Assembly: GCF_028274965.1 (NCBI RefSeq)
Contig: NZ_JAQCNO010000005.1
Coordinates: 1 to 64,000 of the forward strand
Direction: 5' to 3'
Source of the DNA: Natronomonas sp.
Lineage (GTDB): Archaea; Halobacteriota; Halobacteria; Halobacteriales; Haloarculaceae
DNA length: 64,000 nt
In this document: piece by piece, positions 1 to 35,510 of the stretch
Layout of the letters: each line of letters opens with the position of its first letter
Numbering within the stretch: the first letter of the stretch is position 1
Notes under the pieces: generated by a model
Databases searched by the model: none
The model's input: the letters and a program-made list of their open reading frames with translations, nothing else
What the model was told of the DNA's origin: nothing
Position numbers and translations under genes: made by a program

Positions 1-44
1 AAGTAGACCTGCGTGTGAATGGTGGGACGTTGAACGGCGAGAGT

Positions 45-148
45 CACCGGCCTATTGCTGGTGACTGATTGCCGGGAGTCCACATCAAAGCCCCACCCTC
101 AAGGACCGAGGCGCGTATGCGCCGAGGGAGTAGGGTGGGGTAGTTTAC
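45..148 (+). mobile_element. IS200/IS605 (IS1341-type) right end, copy 1, with RNA-like hairpin
   Basis: The segment closely resembles two other places in the window (26930-26991 and 32435-32496). It contains a perfect 9-bp stem, CCCCACCCT (91-99) with AGGGTGGGG (132-140), an inner hairpin GGCGC/GCGCC (110-123), and ends in GTAGTTTAC at 148, after which similarity to the other copies stops. One frame across it reads PTLKD just before a stop, like the PTLKER tail of haloarchaeal TnpB. A second hairpin, GTCACC/GGTGAC, lies at 45-67. This is what is expected of the 3' end of tnpB plus its guide-RNA scaffold; any intact tnpB would lie left of the window. The family assignment is inferred from the shared pattern and memory of haloarchaeal IS ends. 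Confidence 0.65.
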
Positions 149-533
149 GAACCGGTCAACGGAGCGCGTGAATGCCCCTATCGCCGCAATTCTTTTTCAT
201 CACACTCCCATCGTCCCAAACAACAGCGCACAGACCCAAGTACCGTCAACAGCGACGGGAATGTTGTCGCCGGGGAATCTTAGACCGACTGAGACGCCCA
301 TGGTGGAAACCGCGCCGTTCACGGCGCGGAGGATGTCATTGTTGCGCGTGTCAGGGGTTCGTGTGCATCTCCCGCCGATGCCTCTCTCCCGGGCGGGACT
401 CGCGTCGTGTAGAGACACCTCTACGGTTCCGTACACGGGGTCGTCGAAAATCACCGGAAGGGGTGGATTCCGGTGGAGATGGTGGGTAGGGGGTTCGGCC
501 TCGGATGACTCCCAGCATCAGACGTGCGTCAGC

Positions 534-26878: not shown

Positions 26879-26929
26879 AATACCGGGGGTGCCGGGCGGG
26901 GCGGGTTCTCACCCAATTCTGGGCGGAGG

Positions 26930-26991
26930 CCCCACTCTCAAGGAGCGAGTGGGTCCTTAGGCCCCAAGCGAAGTAGGGTAGGGTAGCTTAC
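26930..26991 (+). mobile_element. IS200/IS605 right end, copy 2 (solitary)
   Basis: The segment has CCCCACTCT (26930-26938) opposite AGGGTAGGG (26975-26983), the coding trace GPTLKER as in the other copies, and ends GTAGCTTAC at 26991. No LE or transposase gene is nearby, so it is a lone scar. The stem is weaker than in copies 1 and 3 (one mismatch and one G-U). Its TTA at 26988-26990 is read on the minus strand as the stop codon of the adjacent monooxygenase. Confidence 0.6.
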
Positions 26992-28658
26992 TCCGATCGG
27001 ACTCGCGCCGGCGAGTCCCGTATCGCGAACCCCTGATACCCGCCCGCCGCCTCCGCTTCGAGTTTCGAGGCGAAGGCGGGATACCCCCCGGGGTAGGGGA
27101 GGAACACGCTCGGCTTGCCGGGCACGTTGTCCCCCTGATACCACGACTCGGCGTCGGTGTACAGCGTTCTGTCCGCCACGTCGGAGGTGTGTTCGATCCA
27201 GTACTCGACGGACTCCCGTTCGACCTCGATGACGTCGCCGCCGTTTTCTTCGGCGTACTCGATGAGGTCGTAGATCCACTCGACTTGGTTCTCGATGCAG
27301 AGGACCTGGTTGGTTATCGGCGAGGGGCTCTGGGGCCCGGATATCATGAACATGTTGGGGAACTCGTCGATGACCATCCCGAGGTACGTCCGGGGACGGC
27401 TCCCCCACTTCGATTCGAGCGTCGTACCGCCCGTTCCGACGATCTCCATGTTGTTGTACGAGCCGGTGACGGCGTCGAACCCCGTCGCCAGCACGATCGC
27501 GTCGTGGGCGTACTCCGAGTCGGCGGTCGCGATGCCCTCCGGGGTCAGCCGCTGTATCGGCGCCTCGTCCACGTCAACCAACTCGACGTGGGGCTGTTTG
27601 ATCGTCTCGTAAAAGTCCCACCCGTACCGGTTGTTCTCGTAGTTGAGCGGCGGCCGCTTCGCGGCGTAGGGGTACCCCTCGGGTCTGAGCGCATCGATCA
27701 ACTCCGGATCGTCGAACCGCTGGGCGATCTTCGATCTGATGAACTCGCACACCCGCTCGTTCGTCGCCCGGTTCGAGAGGAGGTCCTCGAAGGCGGTCAG
27801 GAACTTGAACCCGCCCATCCGCCAGCGCTTCTCTAGGATGTGCTCCACCTCGGCGTCGGACAGCCCCTCCGCGGAGGGGAGATCGCTCTCGTAGGGGAAC
27901 CCGGAGTCGGTCGTCTTCGCTTGCTCCCACGTCTCGGCGAACCCGTCGTTCCACGCTTCCCACGCCGCGTCGCTTACCGGGTGGTTGTTGGCCGGGACGA
28001 TGTAGTTCGGCGTTCGCTGATACACCGTCAGGCGCTCTGCGTCCTCGGCTATCCGCGGGGCGATCTGAATCCCGCTCGAGCCCGTTCCGACGAGTCCGAC
28101 GCTCTGTTCGCGGAACGAGACCTCCTCGCGCGGCCACGTGGCCGTGTGGTACAACTCGCCGTCGAACCCGTCCATCCCGTCGAACTCCGGCACGTACGGC
28201 TCCGACAGGAAGCCGAGGGCCAAGACGACGTACCGACTCGTTGTCACCGCCCCGTCGTCGGTCGAGACCGCCCACGTCCCGGAGCTGGGATCGAACCGAA
28301 GCGACTCCACCTCCGTCCGGAAGCTGATCTCGTCTCTGACGCCGAGAAACTCCGAGGCGAACCGCAGGTACTCCAGTATCTCCCCCTGTTCGGGGTACCG
28401 CTCGGAGTACTGCCACTCGCTTCGCAGCGCGTCCGAGAACTGGTACTGATAGAGGTGGCTCTCGGTGTCGCAGCGAGCGCCGGGGTACCGGTTGTAGTAC
28501 CACGTCCCCCCGACGTCGTCCGCGCGCTCGATCCCCCGAACTGACAGCCCCTGCTCCCGCAGGTGGTAGATCGCGTAGATCCCGGCGAACCCTGCGCCGA
28601 CGACGACGGCGTCCGTATCGACGGGATCGCTCCTGGTGCCAGGCGACGAGGCCGACAT
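26988..28658 (-). CDS. Flavin-containing Baeyer-Villiger monooxygenase
   Basis: The 556-residue enzyme (start MSASSPGTRS) has two Rossmann motifs, GAGFAG (21-26, FAD) and GTGSSG (181-186, NADPH), and the type I Baeyer-Villiger fingerprint FDGELYHTATWP (residues 155-166, F-x-G-x3-H-x3-W-P). It would insert one oxygen next to a ketone carbonyl using NADPH and O2. The frame is open upstream to 28784 but that part lacks homologue character. Its stop codon comes from an adjoining IS right end. A promoter with a dyad precedes it. Possible relation to the acyl-CoA synthetase: both could act on a ketone's products; this is inference. Confidence 0.88.
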   Translation of the reverse strand: MSASSPGTRSDPVDTDAVVVGAGFAGIYAIYHLREQGLSVRGIERADDVGGTWYYNRYPGARCDTESHLYQYQFSDALRSEWQYSERYPEQGEILEYLRFASEFLGVRDEISFRTEVESLRFDPSSGTWAVSTDDGAVTTSRYVVLALGFLSEPYVPEFDGMDGFDGELYHTATWPREEVSFREQSVGLVGTGSSGIQIAPRIAEDAERLTVYQRTPNYIVPANNHPVSDAAWEAWNDGFAETWEQAKTTDSGFPYESDLPSAEGLSDAEVEHILEKRWRMGGFKFLTAFEDLLSNRATNERVCEFIRSKIAQRFDDPELIDALRPEGYPYAAKRPPLNYENNRYGWDFYETIKQPHVELVDVDEAPIQRLTPEGIATADSEYAHDAIVLATGFDAVTGSYNNMEIVGTGGTTLESKWGSRPRTYLGMVIDEFPNMFMISGPQSPSPITNQVLCIENQVEWIYDLIEYAEENGGDVIEVERESVEYWIEHTSDVADRTLYTDAESWYQGDNVPGKPSVFLPYPGGYPAFASKLEAEAAGGYQGFAIRDSPARVRSE

Positions 28659-28668
28659 GTTCTGTGAC

Positions 28669-28684
28669 TGTGTGCACGCACACA
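28669..28684. promoter_or_regulatory. Inverted repeat at the monooxygenase promoter
   Basis: TGTGTGC-AC-GCACACA, two perfect 7-bp arms. It lies between the gene start (28658) and a TATA-like ATTGTATT (28684-28691, read on the minus strand), so a bound regulator would cover the transcription start. Confidence 0.5.
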
Positions 28685-28979
28685 ATACAATTGTGGTCGT
28701 CGGTGACGTACCGCCCGGGGCGGTCGCCGATCCGGGCGAGAGCCGGTAGTGGTGGATCTTCGCCGCTTTCCGGAACGACCTCATCGTTGGGTCGCTGGCC
28801 GGCGATGGTATGTTCTGGCTCCGTCGAAACCCTCAAACGGTGGTATGTTGTATCGACTGTGCTGCATAGCGGGCGCGAACCCCGCACGAGGAACCGGTTC
28901 GACGGATGCAGTTGTGACCGCTCGATAGAGGGATTTCTCGAATCGCCCGATACACACGACGAGATCGAAGCCAGTTTCG

Positions 28980-32302: not shown

Positions 32303-32366
32303 CCGTCTTCAGTCACTCTCAAGAGTGGCAACAATATCGGAGAGATCGAAGAGCCGGAGGTCATCA

Positions 32367-32477
32367 ACGCCTGTGGAGACTGCGCTCCCTGTGGATACGC
32401 CTGTATCTGCAAAGCGCGTCGTGGAAGCAGGATGCCCTACCCTCAAGGAGCGAACCGCGTCAGCCGTGAGCGAGTAG
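32367..32477 (+). pseudogene. TnpB C-terminal tail remnant
   Basis: The frame gives TPVETALPVD, then SAKRVVEAGCPTLKER and SAVSE with a stop at 32475-32477. I recognise this as the usual C-terminal end of haloarchaeal IS1341-type TnpB. Only the last ~36 codons remain; the RuvC domain and the rest are gone. It overlaps the RNA-like right end (32435-32496), as expected from tnpB 3' ends. A minus-strand tail (FDLSDIVATLESD, to 32309) sits just upstream and may be a truncated host gene. Confidence 0.7.
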
Positions 32478-32496
32478 GGTAGGGTAGGGTAGTTCA
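32435..32496 (+). mobile_element. IS200/IS605 right end, copy 3, with RNA-like hairpin
   Basis: CCCTACCCT (32435-32443) pairs perfectly with AGGGTAGGG (32476-32484). Relative to copy 1, one pair is C-G in copy 1 and T-A here, a compensatory change. The element ends GTAGTTCAC at 32496. TAGGGTAGGGTAGGG is repeated at 32475-32490. Together with copies 1 and 2 it shows the same stem, PTLKER coding trace and GTAGnTnAC end. Confidence 0.65.
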
Positions 32497-32584
32497 CCTC
32501 TAATGACAGATGATTCCGGCAGCGTGTCGGAAGTTGTGCATCGAATCATGCGCTAGTGGCTCTTGTAAAAATGCGAGTACAAAC

Positions 32585-32715
32585 TTGACATCCTCCTCCG
32601 CGTAAACGTGGAGGAATCCTGAGCGTTGGAGATTTCAGGTTTGCAGTCTCACCGAACCCCAAACGGTGAGAATCCGTGTGAGGTTCACGGACTGTGGCGG
32701 GTGGGACTGCTGGGA
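32585..32715. mobile_element. IS200/IS605-type end with hairpin
   Basis: TCCTCCGCG (32594-32602) and CGTGGAGGA (32607-32615) form a 9-bp stem with one G-U pair and a 4-nt loop, followed by sequence I associate with haloarchaeal IS200/IS605 ends (ACTTGACATCC, GGAATCCTGAG). No intact transposase gene joins it. The following stretch to about 33000 holds short hydrophobic frames (for example WGGQAAIVGLIGIALFPA) that may be debris of a lost membrane-protein gene. Confidence 0.5.
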
Positions 32716-33062
32716 GTGCCAAGCCCCCGGTACTCCTATCCTCTATCATATAGGGACTCTCGGAGTTGTTTTTATCTCGGGGAGTCCGGCAGATCTCGAC
32801 GGACTTGGAGTTACTTCTGTGGTGCGTACAGCAGTCGGGCACTGCATCGATTCATTATAAGAACCGACCGTTCACCTGACTGGTTCCGATTATTGTCTCA
32901 TTGCTTGGGGCGGACAGGCCGCCATCGTAGGATTGATCGGAATCGCTCTGTTCCCAGCCTGATTCCTACCTGTACGTAGGATTGCCTGTCAGTTTAAATT
33001 ACGGACTGTCAATCTCAGCGTGGCTATTGCAGCGTAGATTGACTCTGAGTTGTCGGATTCAT

Positions 33063-33082
33063 CCTGCGGCTGAAGCCGCAGG
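33063..33082. repeat. Hairpin end of the tnpA remnant
   Basis: CCTGCGGCT-GA-AGCCGCAGG forms a perfect 9-bp stem with a 2-nt loop. It lies just past the 3' end of the tnpA remnant (minus strand), where IS200-type elements carry their right-end hairpin recognised by the Y1 transposase. Confidence 0.65.
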
Positions 33083-33129
33083 TATTCTCCTTGAGATTTA
33101 TAAGGTCGCAAACGCAGTCAACCCGGCAA

Positions 33130-33514
33130 TTTTCGGGCAGAGCCCGAGCAACGTCCTGTTCAATCGTATCGGTCGAAACGTCACCAGCCGTCCCGCCGTA
33201 GTACGATTCTTCCCAGAACCCACCGCCCCGCAGGTAACCTTCCAAGAACGGTTCGTGCTGTTCTCACATCTCCCGCGCCGTGATGCGCTTGATTGTTCGC
33301 ACAATCTCACTCGGTGAGTGTTCGGGTGAGCGGAGACGAACAGGTGCACGTGGTCGGGCGAGATGCGGATAGACAGTATCTCGTAGCCGTACTCGTTGCA
33401 CACGCCACGGAAACTCGTTTCCAGCGAATCTTCGATCGGTTCGAGGATCGTGTGACGGTACTTTGGACACCATACGGAGTGGGAGTTGATGTTGTACATC
33501 GTGTGGTCCGACCG
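33130..33514 (-). pseudogene. tnpA: IS200/IS605 TnpA (Y1 HUH transposase) pseudogene
   Basis: The minus strand encodes YNINSHSVWCPKYRHTIL, then the HUH motif DHVHLFVSAHP. After a frameshift it continues EHSPSEIVRTIKRITAREM, an in-frame stop, then FLEGYLRGGGFWEESYYGG with the catalytic Tyr region and AGDVSTDTIEQ. One frameshift and one stop disable it, and the normal C-terminus is replaced by sequence running into the right-end hairpin. The 5' end lies at about 33499-33514, touching the stump of another gene. The transposase would have cut single-stranded DNA at hairpin ends. Confidence 0.8.
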
Positions 33515-33848: not shown

Positions 33849-35510
33849 ATGCCGACGGAACTCACCGGGTACGATCCCGACCTGGGAAACAAGTTCGTTT
33901 TCGTAACGGGGGGCGTGATGTCGGGCCTCGGAAAGGGCATCACCGCGGCGAGCACCGGGCGTCTGCTCGCCAACGCCGGCTTCGACGTGACGGCGGTCAA
34001 GATCGACCCGTATCTGAACGTCGACGCCGGGACGATGAACCCCTACCAACACGGCGAGGTGTACGTCCTCGAGGACGGCGGCGAGGTCGATCTCGATCTC
34101 GGGAACTACGAGCGCTTTCTCGACATCGACATGACGTTCGATCACAACATCACGACGGGAAAGACCTACCGCCACGTCATCGAGAAGGAGCGGGCCGGCG
34201 ACTACCTCGGCGACACCGTCCAGATCATCCCGCACATCACCGACGACATCAAACGCCGGATCAGGGAGGCCGCCGAGGGCCACGACGTCTGTCTCATCGA
34301 GGTCGGGGGGACCGTCGGCGACATCGAGGGGATGCCCTACCTGGAGGCGCTCAGGCAGTTCGCCCACGAGGAAGCCGACGAGGACATCCTCTTCGTGCAC
34401 GTCACGCTCGTCCCGTACTCGAAAAACGGCGAACAGAAGACCAAACCCACCCAACACTCCGTCAAGGAACTCCGGTCGATCGGGCTACAGCCGGACGTTG
34501 TCGTCGGCCGCTGTGGGGACCGACTCGACGCGGAGACAAGAGAGAAGATCGCGCTGTTCTGTGACGTCCCCGTCGACGCGGTCTTCTCGAACCCCGACGT
34601 CGAGGACATCTACCACGTGCCCCTGATGGTCGAAGAGGAGGGCCTCGACGAGTACGTCATGTCCGAACTCGGGTTGGCCGACGAGGCGGCCCCCCGCGGC
34701 GAACGCGACAACGGGTGGCGCGACATCGTCACGCGGGAGAAGACGAACGAGATCGACGTTGCGCTCGTCGGGAAGTACGCCCTCGAGGACGCGTACCTCT
34801 CGATCCACGAGTCGCTGAAACACGCCGGCTTCGAGACGAACACGAGCGTCAACACCATCTGGATCGACGCCGACGAGATGGACGGGACGGTCCCCGAGGA
34901 GCTACGGCGCGCCGACGGGATCATCGTCCCCGGCGGGTTCGGGACGCGGGGGGCCGAGGGGAAGATCGACGCGGTCCGCCACGCGCGGCGAAACGACGTC
35001 CCGTTCCTCGGGCTCTGTTTGGGGTTCCAGATGGCGGTCGTCGAGTTCGCCCGTGCCGTCTGCGGCCTCGAGGGGGCGCACTCCGCCGAGATGGACGAGT
35101 CCACCCCCCACCCGGTGATCGACATCCTCCCCGAGCAGTACGAGATCGAGGACATGGGCGGCACGATGCGGCTCGGCAGCCACGAGACGACGATCGAGAC
35201 GGACACCCTCGCCCACGAGGTCTACGGCGACACGTCCTGTACGGAGCGTCACCGCCACCGCTACGAGGTCAACCCCGAGTACATCGACCGACTGGAGGCC
35301 GACGGGCTGGTGTTTTCGGGGCGGGACAACAACCGGATGGAGATCCTCGAACTCCCGGATCACCCCTTTTTCTTCGGCACCCAGTTTCACCCCGAGTTCC
35401 GGTCGCGGCCGGGGCGGGCGTCGCCGCCGTTTCTCCGGTTCGTCCGGGCCGCGCTGTCGGCCGACGCCGATCTCGAGGGCGAAAGCGAGTCCGAGGGGGT
35501 GACCGCCTGA
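33849..35510 (+). CDS. pyrG: CTP synthase
   Basis: The 553-residue enzyme has the synthetase P-loop domain ([18 protein letters not shown], residues ~18-35) and a C-terminal class I glutamine amidotransferase domain with the nucleophile Cys in [14 protein letters not shown] and the His-Glu pair in [12 protein letters not shown]. It makes CTP from UTP, ATP and glutamine in the cytoplasm. It is the first gene of a pyrG-guaAb-small Rossmann unit, with the guaAb start overlapping its stop by one base. Length is normal and the acidic C-terminal ~20 residues are a halophile trait. Confidence 0.97.

Follow-up and report, generated by a model that had tools for sequence, protein, structure and literature searches.

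Hairpins shared by three sites on a Natronomonas contig are probably terminal hairpins of IS200/IS605-family elements

Three short sites in the window analysed here (the whole stretch of 64,000 nucleotides, contig C53:1-64000 of a 2.28-Mb assembly that is 94% complete in 73 contigs) end alike and carry related hairpins, and this raises the question of what such hairpins are. In the IS200/IS605 family, hairpins near both ends are read by the Y1 transposase TnpA as folded single-stranded DNA. In tnpB elements of this family, the right-end hairpin doubles as the 3' stem of the omegaRNA, and the omegaRNA guide sits just beyond the right end. A stem of this kind can serve as DNA and RNA simultaneously. 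A preliminary description of the window had reported three isolated TnpB right ends at 91-148, 26930-26991 and 32435-32496, sharing a stem with one compensatory change that was taken as a sign of RNA structure. We found all three sequences at these positions, each closing with GTAG[CT]T[CT]AC, and they do belong to right ends of IS200/IS605 (tnpB) elements. They are not equivalent, however, as copy 2 combines left-end with right-end sequence in one fused form, and copy 1 is not isolated. With considerable confidence, we read the sites as IS200/IS605-family termini (copy 1 the cut end of a tnpB element, copy 2 a terminal-only element, copy 3 a stump) whose stem is a DNA hairpin read by TnpA. 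Known transposon anatomy explains most of what had been noted about these hairpins. The identities, homologies, boundaries and covariation reported below were obtained directly from the sequences.

1-148, + strand: copy 1, probable 3' end of an IS1341-type (tnpB-only) element
Frame from base 3 with stop at 66-68, + strand: TnpB C-terminus of copy 1, by sequence reading
74, + strand: conserved GGGAGTCCAC of copy 1
90-141, + strand: right-end hairpin of copy 1, with the element end GTAGTTTAC at 148
149-168, + strand: putative guide position if copy 1 is transcribed as omegaRNA (position only, by analogy with IS200/IS605 omegaRNAs)
26906-26912, + strand: target-like motif TTCTCAC left of copy 2 (from the sequence; motif class from L124-L129)
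26913-26991, + strand: copy 2, probable 79-bp terminal-only element (PATE), from blastn and the right-end model
To about 26949, + strand: left-end hairpin arm of copy 2, fused to a right-end arm ending GTAGCTTAC
32363-32497, + strand: copy 3, probable 3' stump of an ISHmu6/ISHma12-type tnpA-tnpB element, from tblastn, plasmid matches and the right-end model
Within 32363-32497, + strand: TnpB residues 378-413, stop and right end GTAGTTCAC of copy 3

Identity of the three sites

Right ends were compared using a covariance model built from alignment A1, which contains 18 of the 26 genus right ends listed, with copy 1 among the 18. Four right ends with large inserts (L032, L035, L045, L048), three without tnpB (L016, L027, L029) and one that is the same as copy 1 (L051) stayed outside A1, and those of a short-hairpin type (L014, L017, L026, L044, L049, L050) were also kept out. 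The model finds matches at E 0.01 in all 20 genus genomes, each of the 20 also has PF07282 matches, and tnpA (PF01797) is present in 13 of them. There are eight model matches in the genome studied here, and the six listed are copy 1 at both contig ends, copy 2, copy 3 and copies on contigs C29 and C57. The assembly contains two tnpB loci and has tnpA solely as two broken pieces, both inside the window, so that present mobility is doubtful.

Copy 1 reads as the right end of a tnpB element whose tnpB is lost at the contig edge, because a TnpB C-terminus runs in frame into it and a second genus genome (G005) has this sequence downstream of a tnpB. Bases 3-68 translate to VDLRVNGGTLNGESHRPIAGD-stop, which resembles the C-termini of the two assembled TnpBs of the genome. 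In G005, the right end and about 70 preceding bases of locus L051 are identical to copy 1 (L018), with tnpB homology upstream and a PF07282 match at G005:C1:1027706-1027909. A tnpB thus lies ahead of the same right end in a relative, but the tnpB of copy 1, expected to the left of the window, is absent from the assembly. The end of contig C26 agrees with window positions 1-149 at every base; the two contigs begin at the same base and diverge beyond base 149, that is, after GTAGTTTAC and one common G, giving a sharp right boundary with different flanks. The identical 149 bases would be the assembler's trace of a repeat with two different right flanks, and the tnpB element of copy 1 is apparently present at least twice in the genome. 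Its resemblance to IS1341-type haloarchaeal elements covers the TnpB C-terminus, GGGAGTCCAC, the right-end hairpin and the end GTAGTTTAC; it differs from them in that its own tnpB falls outside the assembly at a contig break. The predicted fold of 74-148 is a 10-pair outer stem with an inner hairpin (z -4.08, 0/200 shuffles as good), and in a working element copy 1 would be expected to form part of an omegaRNA.

Copy 2 appears to be a 79-bp element made of a left arm and a right arm, since the query matches both ends of tnpB elements, since fused forms exist and since a target-like motif precedes it. By blastn against stretches of genus genomes, it matches both ends of a single tnpB element in L129 (G007) and in L127 (G001), where the two ends lie about 1.4-1.5 kb apart and the matches overlap in a common hairpin arm; in L125 (G005), the distance is about 2.1 kb and extra sequence lies between the ends. 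The fused form also occurs in L123 (G006) and L124 (G018), the latter with TTCAC before the element and TTCAC at its end. The left ends L125-L129 and the mini-element L124 are preceded by TTCAC, CTCAC, TCAC or CTTAC. The right-end model recognizes copy 2, which was outside its training set, with E 2.8e-8. The stem claimed for all three copies holds for copies 1 and 3 but not for copy 2, whose arms, read directly, contain a C.A mismatch and a T.G pair and whose best fold is a different hairpin (z -0.68, 50/200 shuffles as good). This imperfect stem, together with the several broken elements around copy 3, could be taken to mean that all three sites are plain decayed remnants and that copy 2 resembles a left end by chance. 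Such a reading is very improbable, as 33-45 bases of copy 2 are 80-90% identical to left ends in five loci (six stretches), the target motif stands directly ahead of its left end and the fused form recurs in other genomes.

As a terminal-only element, copy 2 would have arisen when an element lost its core in a deletion that joined the similar left-end and right-end hairpin arms, presumably by recombination between them, leaving a 79-bp fused element behind the target motif. No site orthologous to copy 2 and reaching the insertion was found among the 20 genus genomes, and we therefore infer its history. According to excerpts of a 2011 paper, core-deleted PATEs have been described, repeat-mediated deletion from one near-terminal palindrome to the other gives rise to terminal-only PATEs, and there is high similarity to Natronomonas pharaonis elements (PMC3119063). 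As far as these excerpts go, copy 2 is like a terminal-only PATE in being non-coding, in its target motif and in its fused left and right near-terminal palindromes, but it measures 79 bp against 52 bp in Haloquadratum and its deletion is not seen in a strain pair (PMC3119063). The terminal TTAC of copy 2 provides the stop codon of a convergent gene for a 598-aa oxidoreductase-like protein (ORF 26988-28784); as copy 2 supplies the stop codon, insertion there could be harmless.

The fused form is not common on plasmids, as just four plasmid records match copy 2 DNA, one of them over 80% of its length. A wider census of haloarchaeal left ends covered at least 120 stretches and at least 80 loci, of which 80 rows were examined and L201 was dropped for a match too near the edge. 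Among the 80 rows listed, the census rule assigned 38 as full, 6 as solo and 36 as other. Two of the six solo rows (L183, L212) were dropped because their end match lies far downstream, and four left ends among the 80 are fused by inspection (L164, L176, L210, L214). Many rows in the class "other" are cut off where the fetched stretch ends; two of them (L149, L157) also look fused and end in ...GGTTAC.

Copy 3 would be a 3' stump left from a different, tnpA-tnpB type of element. In tblastn, residues 378-413 of a Halolamina TnpB (L259) correspond in frame to window positions 32367-32474 at 94.4% identity (E 1e-13), and the right-end model matches copy 3, again outside its training set, with E 1.3e-10. 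The parent type has tnpA and tnpB, the former annotated as ISHmu6 or ISHma12 family; copy 3 shares with this type TnpB residues 378-413 and the right end (94% to the Halolamina element) but lacks tnpA, most of tnpB and the left end. The stretch is matched by 108 plasmid records, and among the 30 rows listed 12 are annotated as TnpB and 9 as "transposase". Of 392 genomes of the order, 211 carry the copy 3-type pattern TCTGCAAAGCGCGTCGTGGAAGCAGG with at most two mismatches, and control counts are 0 in the rows listed. The fold of 32400-32497 keeps the outer stem (z -2.37, 5/200 shuffles as good) and can pair in two registers owing to tandem GTAGG repeats. In full relatives, an upstream hairpin (GGAGTGGGACACTCC and variants) changes in sequence while its pairing stays, by reading. 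Copy 3 lacks this hairpin because it breaks at 32363, just past its place in the full relatives, and the omegaRNA scaffold is therefore incomplete. We also considered an exact left boundary shared as a mobile unit, since the breaks of copy 3, of the C57 copy and of a copy on a Halobaculum plasmid (L262) lie no more than about 2 bases apart. We do not claim it because 14 of the 30 relatives are truncated, with starts anywhere in TnpB residues 274-384, a scatter that fits the expectation for decay.

The PTLKE/D coding trace ascribed to all copies was borne out in copy 3 only, where it is in frame with TnpB; in copy 1, PTLKD lies downstream of the TnpB stop codon. The corresponding string CTCAAGGAGCGA is also found in left-end hairpins upstream of tnpB. 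Given these two observations, PTLKE/D is mainly hairpin sequence.

A further explanation is that orphan right ends are stand-alone omegaRNAs, which guide TnpB made elsewhere to sites matching the 3' flank. Stand-alone omegaRNAs were reportedly mentioned in the 2021 OMEGA work. The stem kept in copy 3, the covariation in the family and the two TnpB gene loci in the genome all agree with such a role. However, copy 2 consists of fused hairpin arms only, folds no better than shuffles, has no omegaRNA scaffold 5' of the right-end stem, and is flanked by the stop codon and 3' end of the neighbouring oxidoreductase-like gene. In copy 3, the scaffold is broken at 32363, the TnpB type is not that of either tnpB gene of the assembly, and the left breaks of its relatives scatter as in decay. 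We thus consider this role very unlikely. The guide-RNA ends proposed for copies 2 and 3 were rejected as orphan guide RNAs on account of the missing scaffold, and both copies are most likely without guide-RNA function. A search of the window against Rfam at gathering thresholds gave no matches; nor did four full tnpB loci (L051, L017, L264, L030) at E 0.1, so the silence of Rfam is not evidence against omegaRNAs of these types.

Covariation of the terminal stem

The compensatory change reported for the stem is real: copy 1 (CCCCACCCT/AGGGTGGGG) and copy 3 (CCCTACCCT/AGGGTAGGG) differ by one pair, C-G to T-A. The same change at the same pair occurs in two of the 18 right ends of A1 (L039, L042), which lie downstream of open tnpB frames of 402 and 422 aa. 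The right-end model was given 48 loci, including 18 of the 30 TCTGCAAAGCGCGTCGTGGAAGCAGG-pattern loci, some with truncated tnpB, and it matched 45; L268, L280 and L290 did not match. In a stem alignment of 59 matches (55 distinct) across relatives, all 17 pairs show double changes. Of its 824 cells, 95.6% are paired, against 39.5-48.5% with slid structures, and none of 500 shuffles reaches the observed values; this alignment was fitted to the model and hence leans toward pairing.

Left ends behave in a similar way. The right-end model also matches at the left-end position in 10 of 28 genus loci, and 66 of the 80 listed left ends of haloarchaea pair at 7 or more of 8 positions, a count that took the best partner within 75 bases and hence leans upward. 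Compensatory switches are seen at pair 2 (C-G/T-A), pair 5 (G-C/A-T/T-A) and pair 6 (G-C/A-T/C-G). These left ends are located upstream of tnpB, outside the omegaRNA. As hairpins that do not belong to the omegaRNA carry a stem of this kind and likewise covary, covariation does not single out RNA, and on this point the argument of the preliminary description fails. We infer that a DNA hairpin needed at both ends, where TnpA reads it as single-stranded DNA, is the common cause of covariation at both. An added RNA role of the right-end hairpin in full elements is likely, although covariation is no proof of that role. More generally, a DNA hairpin may be behind covariation at transposon ends, and examining the opposite end provides a check. 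That chance palindromes of a GC-rich genome account for the stem and its double change, for which the short stem and the two pairing registers of copy 3 might speak, can safely be dismissed in view of the copy 1 fold, the model matches outside the training set and the double changes at every pair.

A tnpB-less neighbour of copy 3

Adjoining copy 3 on the opposite strand is an element that we consider a better lead than the three noted hairpins.

32585-33099, - strand: tnpB-less 515-bp element (PATE) with palindromes near both ends, adjoining copy 3
32585-32773, - strand: omegaRNA-like segment of the 515-bp element, including the loop-to-end pseudoknot and right-end hairpin (RF02656)
33100-33103, - strand: TTAT before the left end (33099) of the 515-bp element, from the alignment of copies
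33156-33499, - strand: broken tnpA (Y1 transposase) in two pieces (PF01797)

The right end of this element is GTCAA. TTAT directly precedes the left end in 10 of the 15 copies aligned, and the other five (L300, L301, L302, L303, L310) have no intact left end. Window positions 32540-33120 match 87 places in 40 plasmid records, the best at 92%, and the family is widespread on plasmids of haloarchaea. Fourteen relatives, which come from nine haloarchaeal genera, were fetched out of 38 records (L302 and L303 are near duplicates), and none of the 14 fetched stretches carries an annotation of IS200/IS605 TnpA or TnpB, two of them coming from records without any annotation. Searches by tblastn with three TnpBs gave weak matches only, with E 0.015 in the window and a best value of 6.5e-4 in L301, just beyond the element end. 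By these searches, the omegaRNA-like segment does not overlap the 3' end of a tnpB gene. Two members of the family had no match in a phage collection. Beside the element lie the two pieces of tnpA, at 33305-33499 (PF01797, E 3.9e-16) and at 33156-33329 (E 3.2e-8, one internal TGA), shortly ahead of a CTP synthase gene at 33849-35510.

Positions 32594-32771 on the - strand match the whole model (1-174) of the sotRNA/omegaRNA family RF02656 (sot0042) with E 1.1e-7 and 4.3e-8, and the loop-to-end pseudoknot can form; unlike members of that family, the window element has no surrounding tnpB and scores 36.5 bits, below the gathering score of 88. Two relatives score 36.5 bits (L297) and 28.5 bits (L298). 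Mean pairwise identity among eight close copies is 0.87 in the omegaRNA part versus 0.77 in the rest, and the difference shrinks to 0.84 versus 0.79 after removal of two copies whose left end is not intact. Pairing was counted in 16 sequences, comprising 15 copies without annotated TnpB and one sequence from a tnpB element. Here, 96.0% of 494 cells pair and 8 of 32 pairs show double changes, compared with a shuffle mean of 3.6 and with 2 of 500 shuffles reaching 8. The five pairs of the pseudoknot are kept in 98.8% of cells with no double changes, and helix 3 in 87.4% of cells of this small alignment. In the predicted fold of the ten closest copies, 2 of 46 pairs have double changes, both in the right-end hairpin. 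The right-end hairpin is also needed by TnpA.

Together, these sequence comparisons suggest that the 515-bp element retained a guide RNA when the gene making use of it was lost, and the omegaRNA may have stayed under selection since then. Several points argue against strong claims, among them the small alignment, the weaker helix 3, the lack of double changes in the pseudoknot and the near absence of such changes outside the right-end hairpin in the closest copies. The two subfamilies may each have lost tnpB independently, and neither tnpB of the assembly is of the Halolamina (L311) type. We tentatively propose, as an idea that is more doubtful than probable, that the family is a double parasite: without transposase and TnpB, it would keep a complete, selected omegaRNA, TnpA acting in trans would move the element, and a foreign TnpB loaded with this omegaRNA and a guide from each new insertion site would cut the empty site and so secure retention. 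If true, this would mean that the retention function of an RNA-guided nuclease can be stolen by non-autonomous elements, and the family would offer a natural set of trans-acting guides for testing.

Related elements have been described. A 489-bp PATE present in Halorubrum lacusprofundi, in its virus HRTV-DL1 and on plasmid pR1SE has a strongly transcribed 3' part, and an ncRNA function was suggested for it, citing Gomes-Filho et al. 2015, in the section on that PATE (PMC10544981). Going by the description there, it resembles the 515-bp element in lacking tnpB and in length, and TnpB guiding is unmentioned in that section (PMC10544981). HqIRS71, a PATE that is non-coding and contains a degraded stretch of the TnpB C-terminus, is likewise tnpB-less and keeps the 3' region of a tnpB element, as judged from an excerpted description that dates from 2011 and predates knowledge of TnpB as RNA-guided (PMC3119063). 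In a bacterium, a 271-nt PATE-like copy combines 28 nt of left end with the final 58 nt of tnpB and a right end, according to an excerpt of PMC7290912; it closely resembles the C57 copy of our genome, which by reading consists of a left end, then a deletion, then the TnpB C-terminus. From these partial sources, both an expressed PATE and tnpB-less copies with retained 3' sequence have already been published. A literature search by title and abstract, of partial coverage, yielded no paper on tnpB-less elements as trans-acting TnpB guides.

Further copies and minor observations

An orphan right end on contig C29 (L010 4275-4379; C29 18274-18378) has GGGAGTCCAC but no tnpB, and it ends at the stop codon of the downstream gene. 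That gene is present in all 20 genus genomes, our own included, and the C29 right end is absent from all 19 relatives' sites listed. In L075 and L080, TCAC precedes the same bases as those flanking the orphan, as in an empty target, and the left edge of the orphan, when taken as C29 18300-18378, adjoins CTCAC. A left-end-like hairpin in reverse orientation lies near the C29-orthologous site in L076.

Hairpins have grown or multiplied at several ends. Right-end hairpins in L032, L035 and L048 are enlarged by nested palindromic inserts; the first two retain the outer stem arms, and L048 is cut by a contig end. A similar double-hairpin insert of about 60-70 bases lies in or near the 3' ends of different elements in L014 (own contig C4), L045, L306 and L308, and recalls small mobile repeats known from Haloquadratum. 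In L006, positions 272-352 give a weak match to HgcC (RF00062; 27.3 bits with the gathering score at 50, E 0.0073), which is probably due to chance.

In L127, a further pair of left and right ends, about 385 bp apart (G001:C57:113610-113994), lies beside the full tnpB element and probably represents another tnpB-less copy. In L027 (G003:C2:1044699-1047718), the left end and the start of tnpB are kept and most of tnpB is deleted, while the 3' part of the omegaRNA remains with the right end; judging from this arrangement, the tnpB promoter might drive the omegaRNA directly.
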